Shown here in pieces: positions 15,233 to 39,376 of a stretch of 49,193 bases of DNA. Source of the stretch: Verrucomicrobiota bacterium (lineage in GTDB: Bacteria; Verrucomicrobiota; Verrucomicrobiia; Limisphaerales; J093); NCBI GenBank assembly GCA_022710935.1, contig JAKLFY010000048.1:1-49193 (forward strand). Reading direction: 5' to 3'. Made by a program: the position numbers and the translations under genes. The notes beneath the pieces were generated by a model. The model did no database searches. It was not told the DNA's origin and saw only the letters and a program-made list of their open reading frames with translations. Within the stretch, counting starts at the first letter, position 1, and each line of letters begins with the position of its first letter.

Positions 15233-15357
15233 GCGCCGACGCTACCGCAGCCCCACCGGCGAGTCGATCCGATCTCTTTGGCTGAACCGAGGATTCGTGC
15301 AGGGGGGACCGAGGCCCGCTCAGTCCTCCATTCTGTCACTTTCACGTATTCACTCAT
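15229..15357 (-). CDS. Small leader ORF coupled to the TOTE-type gene
   Basis: 42 codons starting MSEYVKVTEWRTE and ending CGSVGA. Its ribosome site is unusually strong (AAAGGAGGAGGAAACC directly before the ATG), whereas the big gene downstream has none of its own; the stop of this ORF overlaps that gene's ATG. I recognise no family. It may be a leader that delivers ribosomes to the helicase gene or a remnant of a displaced N terminus. Confidence 0.5.
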   Translation of the reverse strand: MSEYVKVTEWRTERASVPPARILGSAKEIGSTRRWGCGSVGA

Positions 15358-15376
15358 GGTTTCCTCCTCCTTTGCA

Positions 15377-15398
15377 GGGAATCCCTCCTTGGATTCCC
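15377..15398 (-). promoter_or_regulatory. Leader hairpin with a Shine-Dalgarno-like loop
   Basis: On the minus strand GGGAATCC pairs exactly with GGATTCCC around the six-base loop AAGGAG. It lies about 20 bases upstream of the leader ORF's ATG, next to the real ribosome site. The exposed purine loop could compete for ribosomes or bind a regulator; this is inference from the sequence alone. Confidence 0.5.
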
Positions 15399-15523
15399 GT
15401 CTTCTTGGATCAGTGCTCAGCTCGGAGGAATGGGTAACCACAGGGTTTAGATCAACATCTCGCCCCTCTCCTTGCCAAGACAGCGAAACAGTAACCGCAC
15501 GAAGCGCTCGGGTCAAACGCGCC

Positions 15524-16477
15524 TCATGGACGGCGTCCCACTTCGGCGCGGGGCGCGACACCCGGACGCGCGGGGTCGAGGGTGCAACTGGGTTTGATAA
15601 GCCCTCGGCAGCGCAAGAATCCGCTCAAGCGAGGGTCGGTTGCCAACCATCGCCAGAACGCTGCCGCCGAGTCCTGGCTGAGCCCGCAGTTGGCAGCCAT
15701 CTCCGCGAACGGTCCGGCCCAAACCTGTGGCGGGGCTCCGAGCGGCGACGGAACCGGGTGAGTGTCGCGACGGCGGAATGTCGCCTCGATGCACTGCCTC
15801 ACGCGGTCGCCATCAAGCATGCCCGATTCGATCAACAGTAGCAGGTCCACCAAATCCTTCACCCGCGAGTTCGGCCTGCCCTCACGTGGCAGCGAGTAGG
15901 CGTGCAACTTCTCAGCGAACTGCTCCTCCCGCGAAATTGCCGGCACTCTTGAGGGAGCGATTCCGGCGAAGCCGAGCCAGTCACGTCCTTCCAGGGGCTC
16001 GAAGGGCTCTCGGAGCACGTCGCCCGCACTCACATCCAAATGGAAACTGATGAATCGTCGACCGGCCATGCGGGCGTCGACTGGGAAGCGGGAGCCACCA
16101 TACGGCGCGGCGTCCAGGTCGAGTCCTGGCTCACCGATCACGAAGGCGAAACCGTCTTCGAGATCCAGACTCGCCGCGTCGGCCAGGAGGTTGCGGACGG
16201 CGAGCGCGTCCCACTCCTTGGCGCCACCCGGCATTTTGAGGAGCCCAAGGTCGATGTCTCGCGTCGTGCGGGCTGACCGAATACGGAGTTCCATGGCGCA
16301 GCCCCCCTTCAACAGCCACGGTGAATCGGCGTGACGAAAGAGCCGGCACAAGAAACGGTCGAACGCGACCTGCCGACGTAGTCTCTGGAGGTCGAGCCCT
16401 TGCTCGGCTGCCGTGGTGTTCAGCCGGATTTCCAGAGCCGCTCGAAGCGCCGCAGCGGTTGCGTATCGTGGCTTCAT
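15524..16477 (-). CDS. abiEii: AbiEii-type nucleotidyltransferase toxin
   Basis: 317 residues. The nucleotidyltransferase core is visible as LLKGGCAMELRIRSA (GG motif) followed by TRDIDLGLL (paired aspartates), then FHLDVSAGD and the REEQFAEKLHAYSLP plus SRVKDLVDLLLL helices that mark the AbiEii/AbiGii family. Members are type IV toxins that nucleotidylate RNA acceptors, with phage abortive-infection phenotypes. ATG at 16477 overlaps the stop of the AbiEi gene by ATGA, fixing the start and showing coupling. The last 30 residues (from GLIKPSC) look less family-like. Confidence 0.88.
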   Translation of the reverse strand: MKPRYATAAALRAALEIRLNTTAAEQGLDLQRLRRQVAFDRFLCRLFRHADSPWLLKGGCAMELRIRSARTTRDIDLGLLKMPGGAKEWDALAVRNLLADAASLDLEDGFAFVIGEPGLDLDAAPYGGSRFPVDARMAGRRFISFHLDVSAGDVLREPFEPLEGRDWLGFAGIAPSRVPAISREEQFAEKLHAYSLPREGRPNSRVKDLVDLLLLIESGMLDGDRVRQCIEATFRRRDTHPVPSPLGAPPQVWAGPFAEMAANCGLSQDSAAAFWRWLATDPRLSGFLRCRGLIKPSCTLDPARPGVAPRAEVGRRP

Positions 16478-17118
16478 GCGCTGTATCGCTCCAGCATCCG
16501 ATCGAACCACTCAGGATGACCGCCTCGTTTTCTCAGATCGAGAATCTGCCGGTGGGTGATCACGCCGCGCCGCGCCCCATCGCGAAGCGCTTGTTCGGCG
16601 AACTCTTGGTGGCCCAGCGCGGCGACGTCGGCCACCGTTCGTATCGGCCGAGTTACGGCGAATCCCTGGCGCCGTTCAACGTCGTCCTCTGCGAGCCGAG
16701 CGCGGTGCAGCACCAGCACCTCAGGGGTGGGTGCGGTGCGGCGGAAATTGGGCGGCACAGTCATGTGGAGTTTCGAAGGATTGGCATCCGAAAGATCGTG
16801 AATGCTCAGAGCGGTCTCATGGGAATAGACCCCGACCGGCTCGGCGGCTCGATTCCGTGACCACAGGGAGTAGATCACGTATTGCTCCTCCATCGAGCGA
16901 GGAAAACGCGCCAGTCGGTAAATGCCTCGTTCGACTCGAACCCAGTTGCCCGCCTTGACATGGTGCGCCTGGCTGCCGAGCAGGAAGCCGACCTCGGCAG
17001 CCTGTTTGGCCGTGAAATAGCCCTGCTGCCCTTCAACGATCTCGAAAAGGGCCTTAACAGCGGAATGCCTCTGGGTCAGCCAGAAGTACACGTTTGTGCC
17101 GACCTCAGAGATCCTCAC
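16474..17118 (-). CDS. abiEi: AbiEi-type antitoxin
   Basis: 214 residues if translation starts at the GTG at 17118. An N-terminal winged-helix domain (HSAVKALFEIVEGQQGYFTAKQAAEVG, here visible as two helices around residues 17-45, then WVRVERGIYRLARFP) is followed by the C-terminal AbiEi antitoxin part with SHETALSIHDLSD, MTVPPN and RPIRTVADVAAL. AbiEi represses the operon and neutralises AbiEii. A longer upstream frame exists but is antisense-like; the GTG gives the correct family length and overlaps the end of the small ORF before it. Confidence 0.82.
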   Translation of the reverse strand: MRISEVGTNVYFWLTQRHSAVKALFEIVEGQQGYFTAKQAAEVGFLLGSQAHHVKAGNWVRVERGIYRLARFPRSMEEQYVIYSLWSRNRAAEPVGVYSHETALSIHDLSDANPSKLHMTVPPNFRRTAPTPEVLVLHRARLAEDDVERRQGFAVTRPIRTVADVAALGHQEFAEQALRDGARRGVITHRQILDLRKRGGHPEWFDRMLERYSA

Positions 17119-17359
17119 GGGTCTGCGTGACCTGAACTGGGTCCCGGTCGAGGTCGAGGAACAACGCATCCGGCAGGAGGCGCGTCGCGGGTTCCAGAAA
17201 CACCTCATCCGGCTGCGGCTGGAATCCCAGATGGCGACGCTGGACGAGTGGAACGTGGAATTGGTCGTGGTGAACTCGCATGACGCAGCCACCAGCAAGT
17301 CGGAAGCGGAAGCCGCGGCCCAGCGCCAAGGCCTCCGCGAGTGCTTTGCTGGTGGTCAT
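17105..17359 (-). CDS. Possible small protein upstream of AbiEi
   Basis: 84 codons, beginning MTTSKALAEALALGRGF and ending VTQTREDL. Its stop lies 14 bases inside the AbiEi start region, as expected for an operon partner. Codon third positions are GC-rich like the neighbours. The opposite strand also has an open, protein-like frame over the same bases (17096-17419), so the assignment is uncertain. No family recognised. Confidence 0.35.
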   Translation of the reverse strand: MTTSKALAEALALGRGFRFRLAGGCVMRVHHDQFHVPLVQRRHLGFQPQPDEVFLEPATRLLPDALFLDLDRDPVQVTQTREDL

Positions 17360-18594: not shown

Positions 18595-18885
18595 ATGAAC
18601 GCGACTGTCGAGCACCGTCTCGCGTGCTACGGCGCCATGTTTCCCGACTTCAGCCGACTGAAGCTGAAGGAGAAACTGGAAGGGCAAGCGTTTACCGCAC
18701 AGGTCATGAATTCGGGCACCGGTGCGCAGGGACGGAAGCTGGAGGTCAGACAGGACGCGTGGGAGAAATGCGTGGGGTGCCCGGACTATCGCACCTGCTA
18801 CGACCTCAGTCTGGCGAAGCTCCTGATGAACGACATCCTCATGAACACGATGGTGGCCAACCCGTGGGTCGGCGTTGGCGATTGA
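18595..18885 (+). CDS. Small Cys-motif protein of the arsenic operon
   Basis: 96 residues, soluble, preceded by a good ribosome site (GAGGGGGAGG). The only distinctive feature is WEKCVGCPDYRTCYDLSLAKLL (about residues 56-77), giving a CxxCx5C triad, plus one Cys at position 11. Three closely spaced thiols could bind As(III) or zinc. It is locked between arsC and the PEP-mutase-like gene with gaps of 10 and 0 bases, so it belongs to the operon. I do not recognise a named family. Confidence 0.8.
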   Translation: MNATVEHRLACYGAMFPDFSRLKLKEKLEGQAFTAQVMNSGTGAQGRKLEVRQDAWEKCVGCPDYRTCYDLSLAKLLMNDILMNTMVANPWVGVGD

Positions 18886-19746
18886 ATGAACGGAACCGCG
18901 ATTGTTATGAACTTGAGCAAGAGACTCAAAGATCTCCTGACCGCTAAAGAGACGCTGGTCATGCCTGATGCCTACGATGCGATGAGCGCCCGAATCATCG
19001 AGCAGGCCGGGTTCAAGGCGGTCCAGTGCTCCGGCTACAGTTTCTCGGTCGCCGCCTGCAAGAGGCACGAGATTGATATCGGTTTGGAGGAGAACGTGGC
19101 GATCACCGCGAAGATCGTTGAGGCTGTGTCCGTTCCAGTGATGGCCGATGGCGAGGACGGCTTCGGGGATGTCGCACAGATCCCGAACACGATCGAACGC
19201 TACGTGAGGGTGGGGGCAGCGGGCATCAATCTCGAAGACCAGGTCCTGGATCGGGCGCCAGGTACCCGAATCATTGATTCGGGTCTGATGCAGGAGAAGA
19301 TCAGGGCGGCAAGAAGCGCGGCCAAAGCGGCTGGGAACCCTGATCTCGTGATCAACGGCAGAACCGACGCGCTGAAGGCGCTTCACACAAAGGAGGAGGG
19401 GCTGCAGGAGGCGATCCGGCGGGGCAATCTGTATCTGGAGGCGGGCGCGGACCTGGTGTTTGTGACGGCGGTGAGCACGCTGGAGGAAGTGCGCGAATTG
19501 GTGAAAGCAATCCACGGTCCACTGAGCGTTGCCGCTGGACTGGCGTACAATCTCAACGCCTTTTCGATCAATGACTTAACAGAGTTGGGTGTTGCGCGGG
19601 TGAGCCTGCCCTCGATTGCGATCAGTGCGACCATCAAAGCGCTGTTGGAGTCGACGGGCGCGCTCAAATCAGGCGTCTTCACCAGTCTTATCGCGAAGAA
19701 GTGTTTGTGCAGCCCCCAGGATATTGGACGCTTGATTGGAGCCTGA
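18886..19746 (+). CDS. PEP-mutase/isocitrate-lyase family enzyme
   Basis: 286 residues from the ATG that follows the upstream stop codon directly; an ATG at 18907 is an alternative. Family features: LVMPDAYDAMSARIIEQAGF near the N terminus, the Mg-binding strand VMADGEDGFGD (family form ADADTGYG), INLEDQ (metal/substrate glutamate) and VINGRTDAL. The mobile gating loop after EDQ reads VLDRAPGTR: it has neither the KxCGH cysteine of (methyl)isocitrate lyases nor the KxNSF of classical PEP mutase, so the reaction is open. The family makes or breaks C-C and C-P bonds of 2-oxo/enol-pyruvate compounds. Its place between arsC and arsM suggests an arsenic substrate (for example arsonopyruvate-like chemistry), which is inference. 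Confidence 0.85.
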   Translation: MNGTAIVMNLSKRLKDLLTAKETLVMPDAYDAMSARIIEQAGFKAVQCSGYSFSVAACKRHEIDIGLEENVAITAKIVEAVSVPVMADGEDGFGDVAQIPNTIERYVRVGAAGINLEDQVLDRAPGTRIIDSGLMQEKIRAARSAAKAAGNPDLVINGRTDALKALHTKEEGLQEAIRRGNLYLEAGADLVFVTAVSTLEEVRELVKAIHGPLSVAAGLAYNLNAFSINDLTELGVARVSLPSIAISATIKALLESTGALKSGVFTSLIAKKCLCSPQDIGRLIGA

Positions 19747-21985: not shown

Positions 21986-21998
21986 GTTGCGCCTCGTC

Positions 21999-22319
21999 AT
22001 GGCAAGCAAACGGTCGGTCACGCAATTCAAAGCCCAGGCCCAGGTGTTCAAGGCGCTGGCGCATCCGGGGCGTCTGCTCATGCTGGACGAATTGTCGCGA
22101 GGCGAGCGCTGCGTTTGCGAACTCGCCGCGTTGGTCGGGTCGGAGATGCCGACGGTGTCGCGGCACCTGTCCGTGCTCCGGAATGCCGGGATCGTGGACG
22201 ACGAGAAGCGGGGCGCCCAGGTATTCTATCGGCTGGTCACGCCGTGCGTGATGAACCTCTTCCAGTGCGTGGCGTCGGTCCGGGAGCAGGAGGCAAAATC
22301 CTCCGCGCGGCAGGGCTGA
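21999..22319 (+). CDS. arsR: ArsR-family metalloregulator 2
   Basis: 106 residues, distinct from ArsR1 (about one third similar by eye). Winged helix with KALAHPGRLLMLDELSRGERCVCEL; C38 and C40 form the CxC sensor in helix 3, and EMPTVSRHLSVLRNAGIV is the recognition helix. A further Cys pair (PCVMNLFQC) near the C terminus may take part in sensing. It probably governs its own promoter and the permease operon downstream. Two ArsR genes with nearly identical operators suggest cross-regulation. Confidence 0.92.
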   Translation: MASKRSVTQFKAQAQVFKALAHPGRLLMLDELSRGERCVCELAALVGSEMPTVSRHLSVLRNAGIVDDEKRGAQVFYRLVTPCVMNLFQCVASVREQEAKSSARQG

Positions 22320-22388: not shown

Positions 22389-23735
22389 ATGAGTGCGTTC
22401 GCTGCCACAACCTCAAACGACGGTCTCAGCCGCGAACTCAAACTCTTTTCCTGGATGGCCGGCGTGTTCCTCCTCGCCTACTTCCTGCCCCTCTCCAATC
22501 CGAAGGTCACGGCGGCGATCCAGGAGGCGTTCAAGCTGCTGCAATGGTATGCGCGCAACCATACGCTGGCCTGCGTGGTGCCCGCGCTGTTCATCGCCGG
22601 GGCGGTCATCACGTTCCTCTCCCAGGCCTCGGTCATGCGCTACCTGGGACCGAACGCGAACAAGCCTCTGGCCTACAGTGTCGCGTCCGTGTCGGGCGGC
22701 ATCCTGGCGGTCTGTTCGTGCAGTGTGCTGCCGGTGTTTGCGGGCATCTACCGGCTGGGCGCGGGGCTGGGTCCGGCCAGCGCGTTCCTGTACTCGGGTC
22801 CGGCGATCAATATCCTCGCCATCTTCCTCACGGCGCGGGTGCTGGGCTTTTCCATCGGTCTTTGGCGGGCAATTGGAGCGATCGCGTTCGCCTTCATCAT
22901 CGGTCTGTTGATGGCCGTGATCTTCCGGCGTGAGGAACGCGAGCGCATCGAGGCGCAGGCGGTGCTGCCAGAGCCGGAGGCGCCGAAACGCCCGCTGTGG
23001 AAAACCTCGATCTTCTTCGCCTGTCTCGTGGCATTCCTGGTCTTCAGCGACTGGTACAACCCGGGGGATGTGATCGTGCGCCCCGTCGCTGGCGGTTCGT
23101 TCGGGGCGGTGTCGCTTCAGGAGACCCACGATGAAGTGATGTTTCAACTCAAAGAGGACTGGGCCGGGCATCGGAGTGGGGACAAGATCACGTTGGCCAA
23201 ACGCGACCTCGCGAGGGTGGAGGAGGCCAAGACGTGGGTGATTGCCGTCCATCACGCTCGCTGGTATCTGGCTGGCGTGATGGGCCTGGCGGTGTTGCTG
23301 ACGACCTGGCGTTGGATGGACCGCGAGGAAGTGGGCCAATGGATGCACAACACCTGGGACTTCGCCAAGCTGCTGGTGCCGCTGCTGTTTGGTGGCGTGT
23401 TTGTGGTTGGCTTCATTGGCGCGCTGATCCCGGACGCTTACGTCGCCTCGCTCGTGGGCGACAATTCGGTCAAGTCCAACCTCGTTGCCAGTGTGATCGG
23501 TGCGTTCTGGTATTTCGCCACGTTGACGGAAATCCCGATCTGCGAAGCGCTGGGGAAGCTGGGCATGGCACCCGGGCCGATGCTGGCGCTGTTGCTGGCT
23601 GGACCGGCGGTTTCGCTGCCGAACATGCTCGTTCTCCGGAGCGTGATGGGCACCAAGAAGATGCTCGTGTTCACCGGGTTGGTCATCGTGATGGCCGCGA
23701 TCACGGGCATGGTTTACGGAGTGTGGAGGACGTGA
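22389..23735 (+). CDS. ArsP-type permease (organoarsenical efflux)
   Basis: 448 residues of the PF03773 predicted-permease family. Helices occur around 19-37, 55-75, 95-130, 145-175, then a large polar loop (about 180-295) and three or four further helices. Diagnostic motifs are GGILAVCSCSVLPVFAGIY (Cys pair of the family) and FSGP-like LYSGPAINILAIFLTARVLGF, repeated in the second half as SLVGDN and ALLLAGPAVSLPNMLVL. ArsP members export trivalent methyl and aryl arsenicals; general family members are uncharacterised. Position behind an arsR and next to arsM fits efflux of methylarsenite. Confidence 0.85.
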   Translation: MSAFAATTSNDGLSRELKLFSWMAGVFLLAYFLPLSNPKVTAAIQEAFKLLQWYARNHTLACVVPALFIAGAVITFLSQASVMRYLGPNANKPLAYSVASVSGGILAVCSCSVLPVFAGIYRLGAGLGPASAFLYSGPAINILAIFLTARVLGFSIGLWRAIGAIAFAFIIGLLMAVIFRREERERIEAQAVLPEPEAPKRPLWKTSIFFACLVAFLVFSDWYNPGDVIVRPVAGGSFGAVSLQETHDEVMFQLKEDWAGHRSGDKITLAKRDLARVEEAKTWVIAVHHARWYLAGVMGLAVLLTTWRWMDREEVGQWMHNTWDFAKLLVPLLFGGVFVVGFIGALIPDAYVASLVGDNSVKSNLVASVIGAFWYFATLTEIPICEALGKLGMAPGPMLALLLAGPAVSLPNMLVLRSVMGTKKMLVFTGLVIVMAAITGMVYGVWRT

Positions 23736-23803: not shown

Positions 23804-24034
23804 ATGAACATTCTGGTTATTGGCCCCGGCTGCACCAGGTGTAAGACACTGGCGCAACTCACGGAACAGGCCGTCAAAGAACTGGGCGTCACCGCCGAAA
23901 TCAACAAGGTCACTGACCTCAAGCAGATCATGGCGCTGGGGGTGATGATGACGCCGGCGCTGGCGATCAACGGCACGGTCAAGCTGGCCGGCCGCGTGCC
24001 CTCGCTCGAGGAGATCAAGAAGCTGCTCGTCTAA
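23804..24034 (+). CDS. Small thioredoxin-like disulfide protein
   Basis: 76 residues, glutaredoxin/thioredoxin-like mini fold of the redox-active disulfide protein 2 type: MNILVIGPGCTRCKTL with C10-x2-C13, a central VTDLKQIMALGVMMTPALAINGTV containing the cis-proline (TPAL), and a final helix. Such proteins are usually encoded directly after PF03773 permeases, as here (68-base gap). It probably handles thiol/disulfide or As(III) transfer in the cytosol. Confidence 0.88.
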   Translation: MNILVIGPGCTRCKTLAQLTEQAVKELGVTAEINKVTDLKQIMALGVMMTPALAINGTVKLAGRVPSLEEIKKLLV

Positions 24035-24068: not shown

Positions 24069-25481
24069 ATGAGTGCGCTGCACGATAACGCCGATCTTGC
24101 CGTCCTGGGCGGGGGGCCGGGAGGCTACGTCGCAGCTTTGCGCGCGGCCCAGCGCGGCGCGCGGGTCGTCCTGATCGAGAAGGAACGGGTTGGCGGGACG
24201 TGCCTCAATGTGGGCTGCATCCCGACCAAGGTGCTCACGACAGTCACTGAACTCCTGCTTCGCGCGAAGCAGTCAGCGCGATTCGGGCTATCGATCCCAC
24301 AGGCCACGGTAGACTTGCCCACCCTCATGGCCTACAAGCGGAGCACCGTGGAGCAGCTTGTTGGTGGCGTGGAACAACTGCTGAAGGCACGTCGCGTCAC
24401 GCTCATTCGCGGCGAGGCACAGCTCATAAAGCCAGACACACTTTCGATTGCTGATGGGTCAGGGGGCCGTCGGGAGGTTTCGGCCCAGCGGGTGATCCTT
24501 GCGCCGGGGTCCGTCTCCGCGACGCCGCCGGTTGCGGGATGCAACCTGCCGGGCGTGATGACGAGCACGGGGGCACTAGACATCCAGACGGTACCGTCCC
24601 GGTTGGTCGTGGTGGGCGGAGGCGTGATCGGGCTGGAATTCGCCTGCATTTACGAAGCGCTGGGCAGCCAGGTGAGCGTCCTGGAGATGACCCCGACGAT
24701 TCTACCGGCTGCAACCGATGAGGCCATCGCGAAACGGCTACACATGTTGCTTCGGCGGCGGGGGATGGAGATCCAGACCAGCACGGTCGTCCAAAGGATT
24801 GAGCGAATCGGCGAGACCTTGCGCGTGTTCGCGGAAACGGCCGGTGCTGAGACGACGGCCGACTGCGAGCGGGTCTTGATTGCGACTGGTCGTTGGCCGA
24901 ACACGCAGGGGATGGGCTTCGCTGAACTGGGCTTGCGTATGAACGGACGGGCCATTGCCGTAGACGAGCGATTGGCGACGAACCTGCCCAACGTGTGGGC
25001 CGTTGGCGACGCAATCGGAGGGTGGATGCTGGCGCACAAGGCGATGGTGGATGGCCGCGTCGCGGCCGAGAATGCAGCCGGCGGTCAGCGGCAAGTCGAT
25101 TATCGTTCCGTGCCAAACGTGATCTTCACGCGGCCAGAGGTCGCGAGCGTGGGCTTGACCGAAGCCCAGGCGCGCACTCAGGGCGCGGAGGTCAAGGTCA
25201 CGCAGTTTCCGTTCTCGGCCAACCCTCGTGCGCGTATCCTCGATGAATCTGAGGGCGTGGTCCGGCTGATCTGCGAGGCTGGGAGTGGCCGCATCCTCGG
25301 AGTCCACATGCTGGGGCCGCACGTCACCGGCCTGATCGCGGAGGGGGCACTGGCGGTGCAAACGGGCGCGACCGCGGACGACCTGGCGTGGACCACGCAC
25401 GCGCACCCGACGCTGCCCGAAGCGATGTTGGAGGCCGCGCTTGGCTTCCGCGATGCCGCCATCCACATTCACACCCGGTGA
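24069..25481 (+). CDS. lpd: Dihydrolipoamide dehydrogenase
   Basis: 470 residues. FAD-binding GGGPGGYVAALRAAQ (about 14-28), redox-active GGTCLNVGCIPTK (cysteines about 44 and 49), NAD-binding VVVGGGVIGLEFACIYEALG, second FAD motif NVWAVGDA and the catalytic base pair HAHPTLPEAM (His-x4-Glu) at the dimer end. It oxidises dihydrolipoyl groups with NAD+, or reduces lipoyl disulfide in reverse. No E1/E2 or glycine-cleavage genes are nearby; the next gene encodes a lipoyl carrier, so this Lpd is probably dedicated to that carrier rather than to a 2-oxo-acid complex. Confidence 0.93.
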   Translation: MSALHDNADLAVLGGGPGGYVAALRAAQRGARVVLIEKERVGGTCLNVGCIPTKVLTTVTELLLRAKQSARFGLSIPQATVDLPTLMAYKRSTVEQLVGGVEQLLKARRVTLIRGEAQLIKPDTLSIADGSGGRREVSAQRVILAPGSVSATPPVAGCNLPGVMTSTGALDIQTVPSRLVVVGGGVIGLEFACIYEALGSQVSVLEMTPTILPAATDEAIAKRLHMLLRRRGMEIQTSTVVQRIERIGETLRVFAETAGAETTADCERVLIATGRWPNTQGMGFAELGLRMNGRAIAVDERLATNLPNVWAVGDAIGGWMLAHKAMVDGRVAAENAAGGQRQVDYRSVPNVIFTRPEVASVGLTEAQARTQGAEVKVTQFPFSANPRARILDESEGVVRLICEAGSGRILGVHMLGPHVTGLIAEGALAVQTGATADDLAWTTHAHPTLPEAMLEAALGFRDAAIHIHTR

Positions 25482-25495
25482 GGAAAGGAGACACG

Positions 25496-25957
25496 ATGCC
25501 AGATTATCTCGAAACGACGCTGGACAAATTCACCTTTCGGGTGGCCAAGGATCGGCTTTACACAGGACGAGGCGCTTGGGTCTTCTGGATGCGGCCCGAA
25601 GCGCCCACCCGCGTCCGCATCGGCCTGGCTGACTATCTCCAGCAGCGCAGCGGCGACGTCGCCTTCGCCACAGTTCAGCCGGTGGGGACCAAGTTGGTCG
25701 CGGGCGACAGGCTGGCTGAAATTGAGACCATCAAGGCGATGGTGGAGCTGCCGTCGCCGGTGAGCGGGACGGTGGCGGAGGTGAACTCAGCCCTGGATAC
25801 GACGCCGGAAGTCATCAACCAGGACCCCTATGGCAACGGTTGGCTGGCGGTGGTCGAAACGACGGCTTGGGAAATTGAGCGGGCGAAGCTGGTCGAACCG
25901 GAGGCGTACTTCTCGGCCATGCGGGTCGAGGCGCTTGAGGAGTTGAAGAGGCTGTGA
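25496..25957 (+). CDS. GcvH-like lipoyl carrier protein
   Basis: 153 residues starting at the ATG with a strong ribosome site (AAAGGAG). The H-protein fold is visible: RVRIGLADYLQQRSGDV (entry strand and helix), VGTKLVAGDRLAEIETIKAM with the predicted lipoyl-lysine K80, LPSPVSGTVAEVNSAL, and NQDPYGNGWLAVVE. In ordinary GcvH the lysine is in ESVKA; here it is ETIKA. The N-terminal 30 residues (TLDKFTFRVAKDRLYTGRGAWVF) are longer and different. There is no gcvT/gcvP in the window, so this is a GcvH-like protein with another job, operon-linked to Lpd (14 bases) and overlapped by the DGC gene. Confidence 0.9.
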   Translation: MPDYLETTLDKFTFRVAKDRLYTGRGAWVFWMRPEAPTRVRIGLADYLQQRSGDVAFATVQPVGTKLVAGDRLAEIETIKAMVELPSPVSGTVAEVNSALDTTPEVINQDPYGNGWLAVVETTAWEIERAKLVEPEAYFSAMRVEALEELKRL

Positions 25958-26382
25958 ACACCGACGAGACGAAGGTGGTCGTGGTGCCGTGCAGCGGCAT
26001 CGGGAAACCGTTCGGCAGCGTGAGCCGCGAGGCGGCCTACGACCTGTGCGATGAACTACGGCCGGGGAAGACGCGGCTGGTGGCGCTGGCCAAATTGGTG
26101 ACGGGTGAAGCTACGGCCCAAGAACTCATTCGCCGACATCCGGCGGTGACCATTGATGGCTGCAAACAAATGTGCGCCGCCAAGATGGTCAGGCAGAGCG
26201 GCGGCACGGTGGCCCACGAGGTGGCCGTGCTGGACGTGTTCCGGCGTCACAAGGATCTCAAGCCTGAAGGCATTGCCGAGTTGAATGAGGCTGGGCAGAA
26301 GCTGGCCCGCGTCCTGGCCGAGGAGGTTGCTGAGCGCCTCGACGGTTTAGAGCAAGCCGCGAAAGGAGTAAGTCATGTCTGA
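25954..26382 (+). CDS. DGC-family putative zinc-binding protein 1
   Basis: 142 residues starting from the GTG that overlaps the previous stop. Family features: VVVVPCSGIGKPFGSVSREAAYDL, with C13, and TIDGCKQMCAAKM, the Asp-Gly-Cys motif that names PF08859, plus a second Cys four residues on. The pattern of four conserved acidic/Cys residues suggests a zinc or other soft-metal site; biochemical role is unknown. It is a paralog of the N-terminal half of the next gene, with which it overlaps by eight bases. Confidence 0.85.
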   Translation: MNTDETKVVVVPCSGIGKPFGSVSREAAYDLCDELRPGKTRLVALAKLVTGEATAQELIRRHPAVTIDGCKQMCAAKMVRQSGGTVAHEVAVLDVFRRHKDLKPEGIAELNEAGQKLARVLAEEVAERLDGLEQAAKGVSHV

Positions 26383-27100
26383 GGTGCTTGAACGGAAAGT
26401 GGGCATCGTCGCGTGCAGCGGGGAGGAGTTGGCCGAGGGCGCTGTCGCGCGGTTAGCCGCCCTGAAGGTGCTCAATGAACTGCGCCCCCGGGACACGGTG
26501 ACCATCTGTCTGCCCCTCTTCCTGGCGGGTGGCGCCGGGGACCGCGCCTTCGCCAAACTGCACCCCACGATTACCGTGGACGGCTGCGACCTGCGCTGCG
26601 CCGCGCGTGGCACGGAGAAGTATTCGAGCAAGCCGGCCGCCAGCCTGGTGGTGAACGAGCTTGTGGCTGAATGTGGCCTGGAGAAGCCCGAAGGACGGCG
26701 GCGATTGAATGCCGCAGGACAGAAGGCGGTGGAGCTCACGGCCGAACGCCTGGCAGCTCTGGTGGACCAAGCGCTAGGCAAGGAAGCTGGGACCTCGGCA
26801 GAGGCCGAGGCGTCGGCAAGCAGGCCCAACGGGGAGGAACGTGAGGTCGCCTGCTCTTGCGGATCAGGGGTCGCGGTGACGAAGCTCACCATCAATGGCC
26901 AGACGGTCGAGTTGGTGGCGCTGCCGCTCATCTTCCGGCACTTCCGGGAAAAGGGGCGGGGTCAGGACGAGGAAGCCGCGCGCGACCTGTTCGAGACCGT
27001 GAAAGTCTACAATGCCGTCCCGGAGGAAGCCGAGGCAAGTTACCGCGAGGTGGTGCTGCGAGAGTACGCCGCCTACTGCCAAAAGGAGATGAAGCCATGA
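26375..27100 (+). CDS. DGC-family protein 2 with extra C-terminal domain
   Basis: 241 residues. Residues about 1-130 repeat the DGC fold (VGIVACSGEELAEGAVARLA and TVDGCDLRCAARG), and after an Ala/Glu-rich linker (about 130-155) a second domain of some 85 residues begins with ACSCGSGVAVTKLTINGQTV and ends in REVVLREYAAYC. The CSCG turn and the terminal Cys could form another metal site. The second domain is absent from the neighbouring DGC protein; I do not recognise it with confidence. ATGA overlap with the OsmC gene. Confidence 0.82.
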   Translation: MSEVLERKVGIVACSGEELAEGAVARLAALKVLNELRPRDTVTICLPLFLAGGAGDRAFAKLHPTITVDGCDLRCAARGTEKYSSKPAASLVVNELVAECGLEKPEGRRRLNAAGQKAVELTAERLAALVDQALGKEAGTSAEAEASASRPNGEEREVACSCGSGVAVTKLTINGQTVELVALPLIFRHFREKGRGQDEEAARDLFETVKVYNAVPEEAEASYREVVLREYAAYCQKEMKP

Positions 27101-27549
27101 GCCGCACGGCGACCTACCACACGACGGTCCGCTGGACCGGAGAACACTGGGGCCATCTGATCATGGGCAACGGTCCGGAGATGAAGTTCTCGGCTCCGCC
27201 GGACGCGCACGGACACGCCGGAGTGGTGACGCCGGAGGACGCCTTTGTGGCGGCGGCGAACACCTGCGTGATGATGATGTTCATTTGGGCGACCGAGCGC
27301 TTCAAACTGAAGCTGGTGTCTTTTGAGTGCCGCACGGAGGGCACCAAACTCATCGAACTTGACCGCACAGAGATTTTTACCCGACTGCATTTCCGCCCGG
27401 TGATCCGCATCGCGGCGGCGGGCGAGCCACGGGCGGCCGTCGAGGCCCGTACCCGGCGAGCGCTCCAGGCGGCGCGGAAGTACAGCCTGGTGGCGAATTC
27501 GGTGAAGTCGGAAATCGTCATCGAGCCGGAGATCACTATTGACGAATGA
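27097..27549 (+). CDS. OsmC-like thiol protein
   Basis: 150 residues. OsmC fold: RTATYHTTVRWTGEHWGHLI, then SAPPDAHGHAGVVTPEDAFVAAANTC with the peroxidatic-type Cys, and LVSFECRTEG with the second Cys on the following strand. OsmC/Ohr proteins reduce organic hydroperoxides, and Ohr-type enzymes are recycled by lipoylated proteins and Lpd rather than by thioredoxin; the neighbouring lipoyl carrier and Lpd fit that chemistry well. Whether the substrate here is a peroxide or an arsenical is open. Confidence 0.88.
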   Translation: MSRTATYHTTVRWTGEHWGHLIMGNGPEMKFSAPPDAHGHAGVVTPEDAFVAAANTCVMMMFIWATERFKLKLVSFECRTEGTKLIELDRTEIFTRLHFRPVIRIAAAGEPRAAVEARTRRALQAARKYSLVANSVKSEIVIEPEITIDE

Positions 27550-27626
27550 AGGGTACAACGACCGTCGCACCCCAGGTCCGACATCTGCGGACCAAGCGGA
27601 CTGACAATGAACCTGCGAAACGAACC

Positions 27627-28403
27627 ATGAGCACAAAACAGATCGGCTTCGTCGGCGGCGGGCGCATCACGCGCATCTTCCTGGACGGCTGGAAGAGAGC
27701 GAACGCCCTGCCCGCCAACATCGTGGTTAGCGATTGCAGCGCGGAACCGCTCGCGAGGCTCAAAGCGCGGTTTCCTGCCATCAACACGGTCCAAGGCAGC
27801 GGCGCGGCCGCTTCGCAGGACCTCGTGTTCCTGGCCGTCCATCCGCCGGTGATGGCTGAGGTGGCATCGGCGATCAAGGGCAGCCTGAAGCCTGGGACCC
27901 TGGCCGTGTCGCTGGCCCCCAAGTTCACGATCTCCAAGCTCACCGAGCTGCTCGGCGGTTTCGCCCGTCTGGCGCGTGTCATTCCGAACGCGCCGTCGGT
28001 GGTGAACGTCGGCTTCAACCCGGTGGCCTTCGGCCCGGCCCTGACCGTCGCGGACAAGGCGGAACTCACCGGCTTGCTGACGCCACTGGGCGAGTGCCCG
28101 GAGGTCGCCGAGGAGAAGTTGGAGGCCTACGCTCTGTTGACCGGCATGGGGCCGACCTATTTGTGGTTCCAACTGCAAGCCCTGCGCGAAGTCGCGGCTG
28201 GGTTCGGGTTAAGCGAGGTCGAGATCACGCCGGCCCTGAAACGCATGGTCTGCGGCTCTGCGCGCACGTTGCTGGAATCCGGCCTGACACCGACCGAGGT
28301 CATGGATCTCATTCCCGTGAAGCCGCTCGCTGAAATGGAGCCGCAAGTTGCCGAGATGTACCGGACGCGGCTGCCCGGCCTCTACCAGAAGATCAAGCCG
28401 TAA
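27627..28403 (+). CDS. ProC-like NAD(P)-dependent dehydrogenase
   Basis: 258 residues from the ATG at 27627; an ATG at 27546 overlapping the OsmC stop is possible but its 27 extra residues are not family-like. Rossmann start QIGFVGGGRITRIFLDGW, VFLAVHPPVM, RVIPNAPSVVNVGFNPVAFG (ProC equivalent: MPNTPA) and LTGMGPTYLWFQLQAL. The SGSGPAY/SPGGTT pair of true ProC is degenerated to TGMGPTY and absent, and the genuine proC lies at 420-1235, so proline synthesis is unlikely. The reductase may act on an unknown small substrate of the arsenic pathway. Confidence 0.82.
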   Translation: MSTKQIGFVGGGRITRIFLDGWKRANALPANIVVSDCSAEPLARLKARFPAINTVQGSGAAASQDLVFLAVHPPVMAEVASAIKGSLKPGTLAVSLAPKFTISKLTELLGGFARLARVIPNAPSVVNVGFNPVAFGPALTVADKAELTGLLTPLGECPEVAEEKLEAYALLTGMGPTYLWFQLQALREVAAGFGLSEVEITPALKRMVCGSARTLLESGLTPTEVMDLIPVKPLAEMEPQVAEMYRTRLPGLYQKIKP

Positions 28404-28450: not shown

Positions 28451-28957
28451 ATGAAAACGCCCATCAAAATCCTCATCGTCGCCGCGCTCGCCGTGGTCGT
28501 TGTCGGCGCCGTGGCCCTTAAGAAGAGCAACACTCCAACCGAATCTCAGGCCCTAACCCCTGCGGTCGTTGCCAGTGGACCGGCTGATGATGTGGTGGCC
28601 CAAACGGCCCCGGTTGCTGAAACCAGCAAGGCCAGTCCAGCCACCGCCGTGAAGTTGCCCCGGCTGGTGGACCTGGGGGCGGGCAAGTGCATTCCCTGCA
28701 AGATGATGAAACCGATTCTGGATGAGTTGAAGCGCGACTATGCCGATCGTTTCATCACCGAGTTCATCGACGTCTGGGAGAATCCCGCCGTCGGAAAACA
28801 ATACGGCATCGAGATGATTCCGACGCAGATCTTCTATGACGCCGACGGCAAGGAACGTTTCCGCCACGTCGGTTTCTATGGCAAAGAGGACATCCTGGGT
28901 AAGTGGAAAGAACTGGGCGTGGACCTCAGTGCCAAGTCACCCGCCCCGGCGCAGTGA
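28451..28957 (+). CDS. Membrane-anchored thioredoxin-like protein
   Basis: 168 residues. One N-terminal hydrophobic helix (IKILIVAALAVVVVGAVAL) anchors or exports the protein; a Pro/Thr/Ala linker (25-68) leads to a thioredoxin domain with DLGAGKCIPCKMMKPIL (C80-x2-C83) and MIPTQIFYDADGKE (cis-Pro). Periplasmic side is expected. It precedes the cytochrome gene by 64 bases. It may pass electrons from the CcdA-like ArsG permease (33.5 kb) to periplasmic targets. Confidence 0.9.
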   Translation: MKTPIKILIVAALAVVVVGAVALKKSNTPTESQALTPAVVASGPADDVVAQTAPVAETSKASPATAVKLPRLVDLGAGKCIPCKMMKPILDELKRDYADRFITEFIDVWENPAVGKQYGIEMIPTQIFYDADGKERFRHVGFYGKEDILGKWKELGVDLSAKSPAPAQ

Positions 28958-29021: not shown

Positions 29022-31538
29022 ATGAAAACGCAAAGAGACTCCCACCCGCGTCTCCACCTCAGCGGCGGATTACTTTTCATGCTGATCGGCGCGGCTGTTG
29101 TGTCCGACAGAGGGCCGGCCCGTGCTGCCACCACGACTCCGGAGCCCAAGCGTGTGCAAGGCGTCTGCCCGCCTTTCATGCTGAGGGATGAGCAGGGCAA
29201 CGTGATCGACCCGGTCAAGGGCCTCAACGCCAACGCGCCGTATTCGCCCAAGCAGACCTGTGGCGCTGCAGGTTGTCACGACTACGACAAGATTACCCAG
29301 GGTTATCACTTTACACAGGGCAAGGGCGAAGCGGTTCCGCCGGACATGGCGGCGCGGTATCAGTGGGTCTCCTCGCCCGGCAACTACGGCGGCACCTGGT
29401 GTTCGCCCGCACCTCTCTACCGCTACCTGGCGCCCAAGACGAACGCGTCGGCGACAACCATCGACATGACCTCGGCGACGTTCATCACGGCGGGGTGCGG
29501 CAGTTGCCATCCGGGCGGCGGACCGCTCGAGTTGGATCGCGAGGGCAAACGCTACGACACCTGGATGCGGGATCCGGCCAGCGGCTTGACCCCCGGCGGC
29601 GACAACCGATTCGACGGCGACTATTTCAAGACGCGCTGGTCGGATTCCGGGGTGATTGAAGCGGACTGTCTCCTCTGCCACCTGCCCGAATACAACATCA
29701 AGAAGCGCAACGACCAACTCACCAAACTGAACTTTCGTTGGGCAGCCACCGAAGGCGCAGGTTTTGGTCTGGTTTCCGGGATTGTCGCGAGCAATCAACC
29801 GCCGCAAGTCGCCTACGATCTGAAGAACTTCGATGCGGGCGGCAAACTCAAGGTCCGGGTCGTCACCCAACCGAGGAACGAGACCTGTCTCAATTGCCAT
29901 GCCCAGCCCGGGTGGAAGAAGCGCGGCGCGGACTATCGTGGCCGCACCGACGTCCATTTTCGCGCCGGTCTCCGTTGTGTGGATTGTCACCCCGCCGGCA
30001 GCAATGCGGACGATCCGAGCATCCAGGGACGCGAGGTGCATCAATTCGCCAAGGGTGACGACCCCGGCGGCCGAGTGCGGGACGATCTGGACAACAGCGT
30101 GCGCGATTGTACGACCTGCCACACGACCGGCCAGTTCGGGGCGCCGGTGGCCACCCACCCGTGGCTGCCCCCGTTGCACCTCGATCGGATCGCCTGTCAG
30201 ACCTGCCACACGCCGGAAAAGAAGGTCATGCCGATCCAGGTGCAGGCCAGCGACGTCTTCAACCGCGACGCCTGGATTGACCCGGGCGGCAAGCAACTCT
30301 GGACCTTTTACGGCGTGGACGGCGTTTACCGCAACCATTACGGCATCCTTAAGGTGATGGGCTACGATGATAAACCGACCGAGGTGTTCCAGCCCGTCCT
30401 GGCGGACTACAAAGGCAAGATCTACCCGGTGAACCGCATCCACTCGACCTGGCCGGGCATCGAAACGCCGGGGCAACCGGGCCTGATGCAGCCGCGTCCG
30501 CCGGACATCCACAAGATGTGGAAGGCCCACTTCGACGATGCGAAGCAGTATCCGGAGTTGGCAAGGATCAAGGATGACGATGGGGATGGCGCGCTGGAGA
30601 TCAATCGCCCGGAGGAGGTGGACACACTGATCGCCGCGGTGACGCAACACCTGTCGTCGCTGAACTACGACCTGAAAGGCAAGCGGGTGGTGTGGGTCTC
30701 GAGCGACCGGGTGTATCACTCGGGAACGGAGTATCGCACGCTCGAGAAGGCCGAATGGGAAGCGACGCCCTACGCCAACGTGCACAAATACAATCACGAC
30801 ATCTCGCCCGCCCGCGCCGCGCTCGGATCGGGTGGCTGCACCGATTGCCACGCGACGAAGTCGGAGTTCTTCCACCGCGCCGTACTGCTGACGGCATTCT
30901 CACCCGAGGATGGGGGTCCACGCTGGACACCCAATTTCGCCGTGCTCGGCTACTCGCCCTTGTCGGTCCGCCTGGGCGCATTTCGCGAGGCCACCCTCAA
31001 GCCATGGACTTACACTCTCGTGGCTTTGGTCGTGGGTTTGGTCGTGTTGCTGGCGTTGCGCGGGGTGGCCCTGCGCCACAGCGTCGTCACCCCGGGTACG
31101 CTGGCGAAGCTCTCGTGGCTGGCTCTTGCGGGCTTGGTGTTGGGCGGGATTGTGGTGGCACGGTCAACCGAGTTGGCTGAGTACATGACCGTGCGCCGGT
31201 TCACCCTTGACGCGGCCCATTTCTGGATCGGCGTGGGCATTCTGCTGCTCGCGGTTGTCCTGGCCCTTCAGCATCCCACGAAAACGGCGACGCAATGCAC
31301 ACCACCGGGCTTGGCACGCATCCTGTGGGGACTCATCGTGTTCACCGGACTCTGTGGCGGGCTGATGCTGGTGAAGCTCAGTTGGTTCGAGACGCTTGTT
31401 CGCTTCGCCTACACCGGGTTCGACGTTGGCTTGTTCTTGTTGATCCTTGTTGCGGCTGTGGACCTGATCCGCCGGTTGGCCGGCATGCCGTGTCCTCGAG
31501 CAATCGAAGCCACTAGGACGAAACCGGCGAGCACGTGA
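29022..31538 (+). CDS. Octaheme c-type cytochrome with C-terminal membrane domain
   Basis: 838 residues: signal peptide (LHLSGGLLFMLIGAAVV..ARAA), heme sites CGAAGCH (80-86, a CX4CH), CGSCH (159), CLLCH (216), CLNCH (289), CVDCH (319), CTTCH (363), CQTCH (392) and CTDCH (606), i.e. seven CXXCH plus one CX4CH, and about five membrane helices after residue 660. No CXXCK site is present, so it is not a nitrite-reductase-type octaheme enzyme; the CX4CH plus seven CXXCH set recalls the octaheme tetrathionate-reductase family (from memory). The long insertion between hemes 7 and 8 (400-600) is rich in aromatic residues. It should carry electrons between the inner membrane and the periplasm; its stop overlaps the porin start. 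Confidence 0.9.
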   Translation: MKTQRDSHPRLHLSGGLLFMLIGAAVVSDRGPARAATTTPEPKRVQGVCPPFMLRDEQGNVIDPVKGLNANAPYSPKQTCGAAGCHDYDKITQGYHFTQGKGEAVPPDMAARYQWVSSPGNYGGTWCSPAPLYRYLAPKTNASATTIDMTSATFITAGCGSCHPGGGPLELDREGKRYDTWMRDPASGLTPGGDNRFDGDYFKTRWSDSGVIEADCLLCHLPEYNIKKRNDQLTKLNFRWAATEGAGFGLVSGIVASNQPPQVAYDLKNFDAGGKLKVRVVTQPRNETCLNCHAQPGWKKRGADYRGRTDVHFRAGLRCVDCHPAGSNADDPSIQGREVHQFAKGDDPGGRVRDDLDNSVRDCTTCHTTGQFGAPVATHPWLPPLHLDRIACQTCHTPEKKVMPIQVQASDVFNRDAWIDPGGKQLWTFYGVDGVYRNHYGILKVMGYDDKPTEVFQPVLADYKGKIYPVNRIHSTWPGIETPGQPGLMQPRPPDIHKMWKAHFDDAKQYPELARIKDDDGDGALEINRPEEVDTLIAAVTQHLSSLNYDLKGKRVVWVSSDRVYHSGTEYRTLEKAEWEATPYANVHKYNHDISPARAALGSGGCTDCHATKSEFFHRAVLLTAFSPEDGGPRWTPNFAVLGYSPLSVRLGAFREATLKPWTYTLVALVVGLVVLLALRGVALRHSVVTPGTLAKLSWLALAGLVLGGIVVARSTELAEYMTVRRFTLDAAHFWIGVGILLLAVVLALQHPTKTATQCTPPGLARILWGLIVFTGLCGGLMLVKLSWFETLVRFAYTGFDVGLFLLILVAAVDLIRRLAGMPCPRAIEATRTKPAST

Positions 31539-32950
31539 TGGCGCAATGGGCCAAACCAACGCTCATTCGCGGCAAGCATGCGGATTCCCGAATCGGCAGG
31601 CCCCCCGGAGGTTGCGTCGGATCGCTGGCGTGGCTGACGCTGGCGGCCCTGGCGTCGATGGCAGCGGACTCCGCGGTCCCAACAGCCAAGCCTTGGTATT
31701 CGCCCCTGAAGGACATCGAGGTCGGGCCAGGGAAACTGGACTTTGGCCTGAACGTCCGCACGCGTTACGAATACCTCGACAACTTCAGCATCCTGCATTA
31801 CGGCACGGGCGCCGAGGACGATGTGCTCCTCCTCCGAACGCGTCTCAACGCAGACTACCGTTTCACCGAACAGGCGCACACCTTCGTCGAGTTTCAAGAC
31901 GCGCGCTATTGGTTGAGCGACCTTGCTCTCTCCGACTTCGGTGAGTCGTGTTCCTACTACGATGAGTTCGATTTGCGGCAGGCGTATCTCGAATGGAAGC
32001 ACATGGGCAAATCGGCTTTCGGCGTGAAGCTCGGTCGCCAGATTCTGCTCTATGGCGATCGCCGTCTGTTCGCCCCCGCCGAGTGGGGCAACGTGGGCAA
32101 CTACTGGTGGGACAGCGCCAAGCTCTATTACGACACGGATACGTTCCAGGTAGACGCCTTCTACGCCCAGCGGGTGTTGAGCGAACCGAAAGACTGGAAC
32201 TTCGATCACTGGCCGTATCACGTCGGCGGAGTGTATGCCCACGTGAAGCAACTCCCGGTCACGTTGGATGCCTTCTACGTGGTGAAACACGACTGGTCCG
32301 GGAGCACACGTGGGGAGAGTGGCACGGGAGACGAGACCCGCCATACTTTCGGCCTATTCTCCGAGCAGCCCGCTGGCAAGGGCTGGGACTACGGCCTCTT
32401 CGCGGCCGGGCAGGTAGGGCAGTATGGGCGTGACGACATCGAGGCGTTCGGCGTGATCGCGCGTGGCGGCCACACGTTCAAGACCGACTGGAAGCCGCGC
32501 GTCGGCTTTGAGTTTAACTATGCCAGCGGGGACCGTGATCCAAACGACGGCGTGGCCGGCACGTTCGACGGTGTCTTTGGCGCGATGGACACTCCCTACG
32601 GCTGGATGAACGTAGTGAGCTGGAAGAACCTGGAGGACTACGCGCTCAACTTCAGTGTGCAACCGGCGAAGACCGTGAAACTGGGCGTGGATTACCATTA
32701 CTTCCGGCTCTCGCAATCACGCGACGCCTGGTACTGGGTCAATGGCAAGCCGGAACGCCGTGACCCTGCCGGCCAAGCCGGACAAGACCTCGGTCACGAG
32801 TTGGATGTGATCCTGCGCTGGCAGATCAACAATGAATTGGAGCTCCTCTTCGGTTACGCCCGGTTCTTGGCCGGCGATTTCGTGCGGAACACCCCCGGCA
32901 ACGGCCAGGATGCCAACTGGGCCTTCGCGCAACTGACATACAACTTCTGA
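31538..32950 (+). CDS. Outer-membrane beta-barrel protein (alginate-export-like)
   Basis: 470 residues with a long N-terminal export region (hydrophobic GSLAWLTLAALASMAA about 27-42) and then amphipathic strands rich in aromatics: LDFGLNVRTRYEYLDNF, AHTFVEFQDARYWL, FDLRQAYLEWKHM, FGVKLGRQILLYGDRRLF, and a final WAFAQLTYNF ending in Phe, the outer-membrane assembly signal. The GRQ...GDRR region is typical of alginate-export/AlgE-like porins (PF13372). It starts within the stop codon of the octaheme gene, so cytochrome and porin are made together; a porin-cytochrome pair or a solute pore for arsenicals are both possible. Confidence 0.87.
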   Translation: MAQWAKPTLIRGKHADSRIGRPPGGCVGSLAWLTLAALASMAADSAVPTAKPWYSPLKDIEVGPGKLDFGLNVRTRYEYLDNFSILHYGTGAEDDVLLLRTRLNADYRFTEQAHTFVEFQDARYWLSDLALSDFGESCSYYDEFDLRQAYLEWKHMGKSAFGVKLGRQILLYGDRRLFAPAEWGNVGNYWWDSAKLYYDTDTFQVDAFYAQRVLSEPKDWNFDHWPYHVGGVYAHVKQLPVTLDAFYVVKHDWSGSTRGESGTGDETRHTFGLFSEQPAGKGWDYGLFAAGQVGQYGRDDIEAFGVIARGGHTFKTDWKPRVGFEFNYASGDRDPNDGVAGTFDGVFGAMDTPYGWMNVVSWKNLEDYALNFSVQPAKTVKLGVDYHYFRLSQSRDAWYWVNGKPERRDPAGQAGQDLGHELDVILRWQINNELELLFGYARFLAGDFVRNTPGNGQDANWAFAQLTYNF

Positions 32951-38553: not shown

Positions 38554-39376
38554 ATGCATAAAAAGGCTCGACCGTTCACGCCAGCCTAATCCGCTTCGCC
38601 GACGACCTGCGCCTGCTGCCCCTGCAGATTCGCACCCAGGTCAGCTACCTGGCCTGTGTTCGCCACCTGGCCGAGCACTTCCACAAGGCCCCCGAAGAGG
38701 CCACCCCAGAGGAACTGCGGCAGTACTTCCTCTACCTCAAAACCGAGCGTCGCTACACCCGTTCCACTTCCACCCAGGCCATCTGCGCCATCAAGATGTT
38801 CTGGGAGAAATCCCTCCGCCGAGCCTGGCCGGCCGAGGTCCAACTGGTTCGTGCCACCCCTCAGTTCAAGCTCCCCGTCATCCTCTCCACCACCGAGGTG
38901 CGCCAGATCCTCGCCGCCGTCCCCGCACTCGATCATCGCGTCGCCCTGGCCACCATCTACTCCTGCGGCCTGCGCCTGGGCGAAGCCCTTAACCTCGAAG
39001 TCGGCGACATCGACGCCCAACGCATGTTCCTCCACATCCGTGCCGGCAAGGGCAATCGCGACCGCTACGTCCCCTTGCCCCAGCGCACCCTGCTCCTGCT
39101 GCGCGAGGGCTGGAAAGCCCATCGCCATTCTCACTTGCTCTTCCCCGCCAAAGGCCACAACGGCCAGGGTGCCTCCACCGCCACCCGCCCCATGTGCCGC
39201 ACCACCCTCCAACGCGCCTTCCGCCTCGTCCTCGAGGCCAGCGGCGTCAAGAAGGCCGCCCACATCCATTCGTTGCGTCACAGCTACGCAACTCACTTGC
39301 TCGAACAAGGCGAGAACCTCCGTCAACTCCAGGTCAATCTGGGTCACAAGAGTCCCACCGCCACCGTCATCTACCC
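38554..39376 (+). pseudogene. Tyrosine recombinase, frameshifted and C-terminally truncated
   Basis: ATG at 38554 reads MHKKARPFTPA and then hits a stop; a shift near 38585 opens the frame SLIRFADDLRLLPLQIRTQV that continues through the SAM-like DNA-binding domain (to about 38815) and the catalytic domain: YSCGLRLGEALNLEVGDID (first Arg), RAGKGNRDRYVPLP (Lys), HIHSLRHSYATHLLEQGENL (HxLR) and LGHKSPTATVIY (His, Tyr nucleophile). Directly after the Tyr codon region the sequence switches to an IS91 transposase fragment. The protein type is the recombinase usually encoded beside IS91-family transposases; it lacks the extra helix of integron integrases. Non-functional. Confidence 0.85.

Follow-up and report, generated by a model that had tools for sequence, protein, structure and literature searches.

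Lipoyl enzymes are classic targets of arsenic poisoning, and the locus described here raises the question of what a lipoyl carrier protein is doing in the middle of an arsenic-resistance island. The locus lies on a contig of 49,193 nt (JAKLFY010000048.1, contig C203 in our numbering, analysed over its full length and referred to below as the window) in the 7.5 Mb genome of a Verrucomicrobiota bacterium (GCA_022710935.1). Six adjacent genes encode a dihydrolipoyl dehydrogenase (Lpd), a GcvH-like lipoyl carrier, two DGC proteins (DGC1 and DGC2), an OsmC-like protein and a ProC-like protein, and the original prediction had read them as a dedicated lipoyl module that could capture arsenicals or drive reduction of a peroxide or arsenical. 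We find a conserved gene unit with invariant residues, a carrier clade of its own and a linkage to arsenic genes in many phyla, and we suggest that lipoic acid may have an unrecognised role in arsenic handling.

The six genes are listed with their family matches in Table 1. The Lpd and carrier genes are 14 nt apart and the subsequent junctions are overlaps of 4, 8, 4 and 4 nt, in agreement with the predicted run of overlapping or nearly touching genes; the assignments to Lpd, GCV_H, DGC (twice) and OsmC were likewise borne out by Pfam and by the lipoamide_DH equivalog. Also as predicted, the carrier has a lipoyl-lysine candidate, K80 in ETIKA, and no gcvT, gcvP or 2-oxoacid dehydrogenase gene was found among the Pfam-scanned open reading frames (ORFs) of the window (some small ORFs were outside the scan). 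A canonical gcvH (contig C250), gcvP (contig C14), lipA and two LplA/LipB-type genes are present elsewhere in the genome. DGC1 and DGC2 are the only DGC genes of the genome; both score above the Pfam cut-off and carry the DGC motif, and neither matched an NCBIfam model at E 0.001. The OsmC-like protein and the carrier exceeded no curated NCBIfam cut-off. The last gene of the run, which probably starts at 27630, fails the proC equivalog (111.8 vs. 196.75 bits) and falls just under the P5CR_dimer cut-off (24.1 vs. 25), and a separate ORF at 420-1235 bears a strong P5CR_dimer match.

A carrier search across the phylum gave three relatives with 39-50% identity, far higher than that to canonical GcvH; downstream of each of the three lie two DGC genes and then the same OsmC gene. 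The OsmC alignment was then scanned against 84,980 species genomes, which gave 151 relatives. The best 80 were retrieved and belong to Chloroflexota (41), Acidobacteriota (12), Planctomycetota (6), Myxococcota (6), Verrucomicrobiota (5), Kiritimatiellota (2), Thermodesulfobacteriota (2), Omnitrophota (1), Bipolaricaulota (1), Aminicenantes (1), a Euryarchaeota metagenome-assembled genome (MAG), the one archaeal locus, and two genomes without phylum. The 84 loci compared thus span about ten bacterial phyla and one archaeon. They were chosen by OsmC similarity and are not independent; neither the arsenic neighbours nor the occurrence and arrangement of the other genes entered into the choice. 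Single odd placements may be binning errors since most hosts are MAGs. Named strains carrying the module include Ornatilinea apprima and Anaeromyxobacter sp. PSR-1, the latter an isolate that respires arsenate and has three ars operons (PMC4432346).

The carrier, DGC1, DGC2 and OsmC form the conserved core: all four are present in 73/84 loci, and they follow each other in this order in 68 of the 73 complete loci, with median gaps of -4, -8 and -4 nt. The repetition of this order across phyla far exceeds chance. Five Planctomycetota loci have the alternative order carrier-OsmC-thioredoxin-DGC1-DGC2. The predicted six-gene module therefore has to be redrawn. Its four central genes stand, Lpd directly precedes the carrier in 14 loci, and ProC (7/84 loci) is not a core member; the recurring unit also reaches beyond the predicted range to take in ArsR and an ArsE-type thioredoxin (70/84 loci; 23804-24034 in the window). 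AhpD-like proteins are encoded in 21 loci. Other genes near the module are a third, more typical DGC protein in nine loci (e.g., L033:13913-14290 and L038:2830-3207) and a radical SAM/SPASM protein with distant similarity to tungsten-enzyme maturases (L092:5406-6659 and another 16 loci, chiefly Chloroflexota). Searched against plasmids, OsmC gave zero matches, and the matches to the carrier all fell below 60% identity and mostly bore a gcvH annotation; a carrier-like copy on an Acidithiobacillus plasmid was rejected, as none of the partner genes is alongside and its tree branch is very long.

The carrier is a lineage apart from glycine-cleavage GcvH. In a tree of 72 carriers and 47 canonical GcvH proteins (LbpA was not in the tree), all carriers fall on one side of a branch with 100/99 support and all canonical proteins on the other. 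K80 (ET[IMV]K) is kept in 72/72 carriers, and an alignment of 28 carriers has no conserved cysteine column. The nearest relatives of the window carrier, by search and by tree, are in MAGs of Verrucomicrobia subdivision 3 and Akkermansiaceae. It scores 91.0 bits on the gcvH equivalog TIGR00527 (cut-off 115.85) and 32.5 bits on NF045810, a GcvH-related protein model (cut-off 150). Branching within the carrier clade ignores phyla, with Geobacter and Desulfuromonadaceae placed beside Chloroflexota and Anaeromyxobacter with Acidobacteriota, which suggests that the module spread by horizontal transfer. A GcvH-family match was found in 44/44 hosts searched; in most of them a canonical gcvH, often sharing a contig with gcvP, scores well above the module carrier. 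Two hosts (G305 and G316) have a single GcvH-family match, at a position fitting the module carrier; in G305 there was no gcvP match, and lipA and two LplA/LipB-type genes were found (as both genomes are MAGs, absence is weak evidence). These results support a dedicated GcvH-derived carrier with an invariant presumed lipoyl lysine, apart from glycine cleavage. The notion of a dedicated lipoyl module holds for the carrier and its arsenic linkage, with an Lpd of its own in a subset of loci.

The linkage to arsenic genes was assessed in the retrieved flanks. Among the 59 loci of at least 10 kb, 45 have an arsenic-specific gene and 52 have ArsR. Acr3 lies within 12 kb of the carrier in 18/24 Acr3-bearing hosts compared to 0.17 expected at random, a large effect, though non-independence of the loci makes the formal probability too small. 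A same-strand ArsR gene is found upstream of the carrier in 44/73 loci, and by eye about 30 of these 44 repressors have a GE-x-CVC-type motif. Two loci (L100 and L115) contain the stand-alone run ArsR-ArsE-carrier-DGC1-DGC2-OsmC. In one host (G325) the unit is split: DGC1-DGC2-OsmC stand together at L104, and the carrier is part of a thioredoxin-ArsC-Acr3-carrier run at L144. Gene order and the neighbouring ArsR genes support the view that the carrier is tied to arsenic genes in many phyla.

In the window, the arsenic island spans 17.8-36 kb. Its genes are, in order, ArsR, an ArsC-type reductase, ArsM, Acr3, a second ArsR, an ArsP_1 permease and an ArsE-family thioredoxin. Next come the six genes, and after them those for an exported thioredoxin, a multihaem cytochrome, a porin-like protein, ArsF, an ArsG-like DsbD-type membrane protein, a ferredoxin, an FMN reductase and a rhodanese. 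ArsR, Acr3, ArsM and ArsC thus occur in one run, as taken here to define an ars island. Acr3 (384 bits on the acr3 model, cut-off 282.8) and ArsM (306.6 bits, cut-off 263) exceed their cut-offs; ArsC is a family match only (147 bits, under its own cut-off of 174). The second ArsR is probably the regulator of the downstream run. The flanks, a TOTE conflict-system protein with an AbiE-type pair on one side (12287-17208, minus strand) and a phage-type integrase on the other (38796-39791, plus strand), fit the expectation for a mobile island. Also within the ars run are a phosphoenolpyruvate mutase/isocitrate lyase-family gene (18886-19746), a relative of which is found near the module in L068, and, between it and arsC, a gene for a 96-amino-acid CxxC protein without family match (18595-18885; three loci in all). 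The multihaem c-type cytochrome with a membrane part and the Alginate_exp-type porin that follows occupy 29022-32950.

Table 1. Genes and sites of the lipoyl module and its immediate neighbours in the window.
Feature	Position	Strand	Match or remark
Lpd, recurrent accessory	24069..25481	+	TIGR01350 (lipoamide_DH equivalog), 504 bits (cut-off 408.8)
GcvH-like lipoyl carrier, 153 amino acids, no cysteine	25496..25957	+	PF01597 (GCV_H), 100.5 bits
Codon of presumed lipoyl-lysine K80 (ETIKA)	25733..25735	+	K in 72/72 carriers
DGC1; C13, C70, C74	25954..26382	+	PF08859, 58.0 bits (cut-off 27)
DGC2; C14, C45, C71, C75 and C-terminal CxC (C160/C162)	26375..27100	+	PF08859, 54.1 bits (cut-off 27)
OsmC-like protein; C57, C78, Ser130	27097..27549	+	PF02566, 42.8 bits
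ProC-like NAD(P)-binding protein, optional accessory	27546..28403	+	PF03807 (F420_oxidored), 45.6 bits
ArsR-family repressor, CxC metalloid-site motif (RGERCVCEL)	21987..22319	+	NF033788, 93.3 bits (cut-off 55)
ArsP_1-type permease, accessory	22389..23735	+	PF03773, 255 bits
MTH895/ArsE-family thioredoxin-like protein (CTRC)	23804..24034	+	TIGR00412, 104.6 bits (cut-off 62)
Exported thioredoxin-like protein	28451..28957	+	PF00085; recurrent neighbour, 16/84 loci

The residues of the partner proteins bear on what the carrier could do. The OsmC-like protein is the most conserved core member (median identity 77%), and E47, C57, C78, Y129 and S130 are invariant in 84/84 loci. Its model (predicted local distance difference test, pLDDT, 77) has the OsmC fold, with a best Foldseek E of 3e-7 to OsmC proteins; one Foldseek match is PDB 6ebd, the displayed part of whose title names OhrB interacting with a dihydro- compound. 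E47 and C57 are spaced like the upstream glutamate and peroxidatic cysteine of Ohr/OsmC. Aligned to PDB 2onf, Ser130 takes the place of the second OsmC/Ohr catalytic cysteine, a position that is cysteine in Ta0195 and, by motif, in VCA0330. The replacement counts against a standard OsmC/Ohr cycle and leaves a protein that would require an external dithiol, which the dihydrolipoyl carrier could supply; alternatively, C78 could be the partner of C57. The original prediction had also raised reduction of a peroxide by OsmC with a lipoylated carrier and Lpd, and a classical lipoyl-dependent peroxidase of this kind is made unlikely by the serine. In Lpd, the redox motif CLN(V/I)GC is kept in 12/12 alignment rows covering that region (CLNVGC in the window), and the window protein has 40% identity to the next Lpd of its genome; against the Lpds of other modules its median identity is 69%.

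For the DGC proteins, a role as metal-site partners had been proposed, and invariant cysteine sets were found: in DGC1, C13 is kept in 73/74 and C70 and C74 in 74/74 sequences, and DGC2 keeps C14, C45, C71 and C75, with the C160/C162 pair in 66 loci. These sets could be metalloid holders. For neither protein did sequence comparison find a homologue of known structure. The DGC1 model (pLDDT 91) places the cysteines after strands 8-12 and 63-68 of an alpha/beta fold (topology only); Foldseek gave nothing for it within E 0.001, and its best VIA score (Z 8.3, SIS-domain proteins) is too weak for use. A likeness of the DGC1 CSGIGK loop to the ArsC/low-molecular-weight phosphatase loop was discarded as unsupported.

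The unit is best explained as a mobile accessory of arsenic-resistance islands that consists of an ArsE-type thioredoxin, the carrier, the DGC pair and the OsmC-like protein, usually with ArsR and often with Lpd. In the most far-reaching version, to which we assign a probability of roughly 0.4, lipoate would be the working thiol cofactor of a dedicated and horizontally spread arsenical system, in which the ArsR-controlled carrier, DGC pair and OsmC reduce or transfer a trivalent or organic arsenical. In the mechanism we propose, K80 would be lipoylated by the ordinary machinery of the host and the lipoyl disulfide reduced by an NADH-dependent Lpd, module-borne or housekeeping; the dihydrolipoyl arm would then deliver electrons or thiols to C57 of OsmC and to the DGC cysteine sites, where the arsenical would be reduced or released before it is handed to Acr3/ArsP efflux or to ArsM. 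Lipoylation, direction of electron flow, substrate and hand-over are what we infer here from the genes. AhpD, Ohr and OsmC accept electrons from lipoyl proteins, and the Lpd gene implies NADH cycling of the lipoyl arm, with which the AhpD-like genes agree. These signs of cycling, the lost OsmC cysteine and the DGC cysteine sets favour such an NADH-Lpd-lipoyl relay, for which we see a little less than an even chance, over pure capture and hand-over. Several findings weigh against the proposed mechanism. Most loci have no Lpd, and the second catalytic cysteine of OsmC is missing throughout. Seven Chloroflexota hosts are without any Acr3 match, so that Acr3 efflux is not obligatory. The module has no linked lipoate ligase gene: in the 18 hosts having one, LplA/LipB-type genes are on other contigs or far off, and one host (G332, perhaps an incomplete MAG) has neither LplA/LipB nor LipA above cut-off. 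LbpA, the GcvH-derived carrier of sHdr sulfur oxidation, requires a lipoate ligase of its own (PMC6067878).

Dithiols bind trivalent arsenicals tightly, and the carrier may instead work by capture: its dihydrolipoyl dithiol would bind As(III), methyl-As(III) or aryl-As(III), shield other lipoyl enzymes and pass the metalloid via the DGC proteins to Acr3/ArsP, Lpd serving only to keep the dithiol reduced. The three near-invariant cysteines of DGC1, the four plus CxC of DGC2 and the linkage to efflux genes would suit such a route. We nevertheless regard it as less likely than the relay, though the strongest competitor, because the most conserved member, OsmC, has no evident role in pure hand-over and the recurrent Lpd and AhpD-like genes point to redox cycling. 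Ohr/OsmC peroxidases are lipoyl-dependent, and the OsmC fold with its invariant E47 and C57 could serve to remove arsenic-stress peroxides at the expense of Lpd and carrier, which would act as reductant in the manner known for Ohr; this is improbable in view of Ser130, the many hosts from largely anaerobic lineages (Anaerolineae, Geobacter, Kiritimatiellae) and the DGC proteins, which it leaves without explanation. Still less is to be said for sulfur handling, in which the lipoyl arm would bear a persulfide or sulfane sulfur and the OsmC and DGC proteins would accept it. TauE-type exporters and rhodanese occur near some module copies and LbpA is a GcvH-derived sulfur carrier (PMC6067878); against this, the module carrier is without cysteine compared to two in LbpA, there is no linked ligase, and no hdr gene was found among the scanned window genes. 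Equally remote is a role with HgcAB on Hg(II)/methylmercury, the ars-island location resulting only from clustering of ArsR-regulated metal genes: five loci with hgcA and three with hgcB above cut-off speak for organomercury or methyl transfer, but hgcA is confined to about 6/84 loci and is lacking in the genome of the window, whereas arsenic genes are found in most loci. We give almost no credence to the idea that a spare GcvH, serving glycine cleavage or a lipoyl relay, ended up in an ars island by drift; the carrier does belong to the GCV_H family, yet its separate clade, its fixed partners across phyla and the canonical gcvH retained by most hosts all argue otherwise.

The hgcA genes that exceed the NCBIfam cut-off for HgcA are found within or next to the module at L034:6306-7370, L035:2103-3128, L051:10493-11521, L067:13037-14029 and L068:12880-13890, and are followed by an hgcB-like gene (above the hgcB cut-off in L035, L067 and L068). 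In L054 (9006-9725), HgcA and a portion of an ArsG-like protein share one ORF, which stems from a deletion that fused them or is an artefact of assembly. A coupling to hgcA in the window's own genome was rejected, there being no hgcA in it.

If the lipoate reading is true, the conserved system with its lipoyl carrier would make a tool out of a known arsenic target and give lipoate a role outside carbon, glycine and sulfur metabolism. The DGC proteins would gain a function, a new OsmC subclass would be defined, and a handle would be provided on the arsenic, perhaps also the methylmercury, chemistry of uncultured anaerobes.

Lipoyl carriers, DGC pairs and this OsmC are, to our knowledge, absent from the ars components described so far; genes of the same families as those in ars operons (Acr3, ArsC, ArsM, ArsR) and arsEFG do neighbour the module. 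The module resembles Ohr/OsmC peroxidases in its OsmC fold, the retained glutamate and first cysteine, and the plausible use of a lipoyl protein and Lpd as reductant; it differs by Ser130, the extra invariant C78 and the fixed operon, which includes a dedicated carrier and a DGC pair. In the mycobacterial peroxidase chain, electrons pass along Lpd, lipoyl E2, AhpD and AhpC. There too, Lpd and a lipoyl protein feed a small thiol protein, and AhpD-like genes accompany the module in a quarter of the loci; the module carrier, however, is free-standing and GcvH-like, no AhpC was seen among its genes, and the setting is arsenic. Gram-positive SirTM/macrodomain operons have a second, stress-linked GcvH-like lipoyl carrier (GcvH-L) outside glycine cleavage; the sirtuin, macrodomain and LplA of such operons were not found among the Pfam-scanned window genes.

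Within the open literature (most subscription papers and two papers from the Haft group on the gene neighbourhoods of organometals and selenoproteins lie outside this scope), searches for arsenic together with GcvH/lipoyl, DGC, OsmC or dihydrolipoamide dehydrogenase gave no description of the unit, and one review mentions Lpd for tellurite reduction only (PMC10143001). NF045810 also describes a GcvH-related protein, from which the window carrier is set apart by its low score and by the absence of a selenoprotein operon among the genes seen; our guess is that NF045810 is linked to the SAO/Tso selenoprotein operons (cited in PMC13188914), which likewise have a metal(loid) context. GcvH-derived carriers with other jobs are already known (LbpA and GcvH-L). 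Like LbpA (PMC6067878), the module carrier is a single-lipoyl-domain GcvH derivative that stands apart from glycine cleavage; both have an invariant lysine and partner genes of their own. LbpA has two conserved cysteines near its N- and C-termini, hdr-like partners and its own ligase (PMC6067878); the module carrier has no cysteine and no linked ligase, no hdr-like cluster was found among the scanned window genes or the recurrent neighbours, and its partners are instead DGC and OsmC proteins encoded among arsenic genes.

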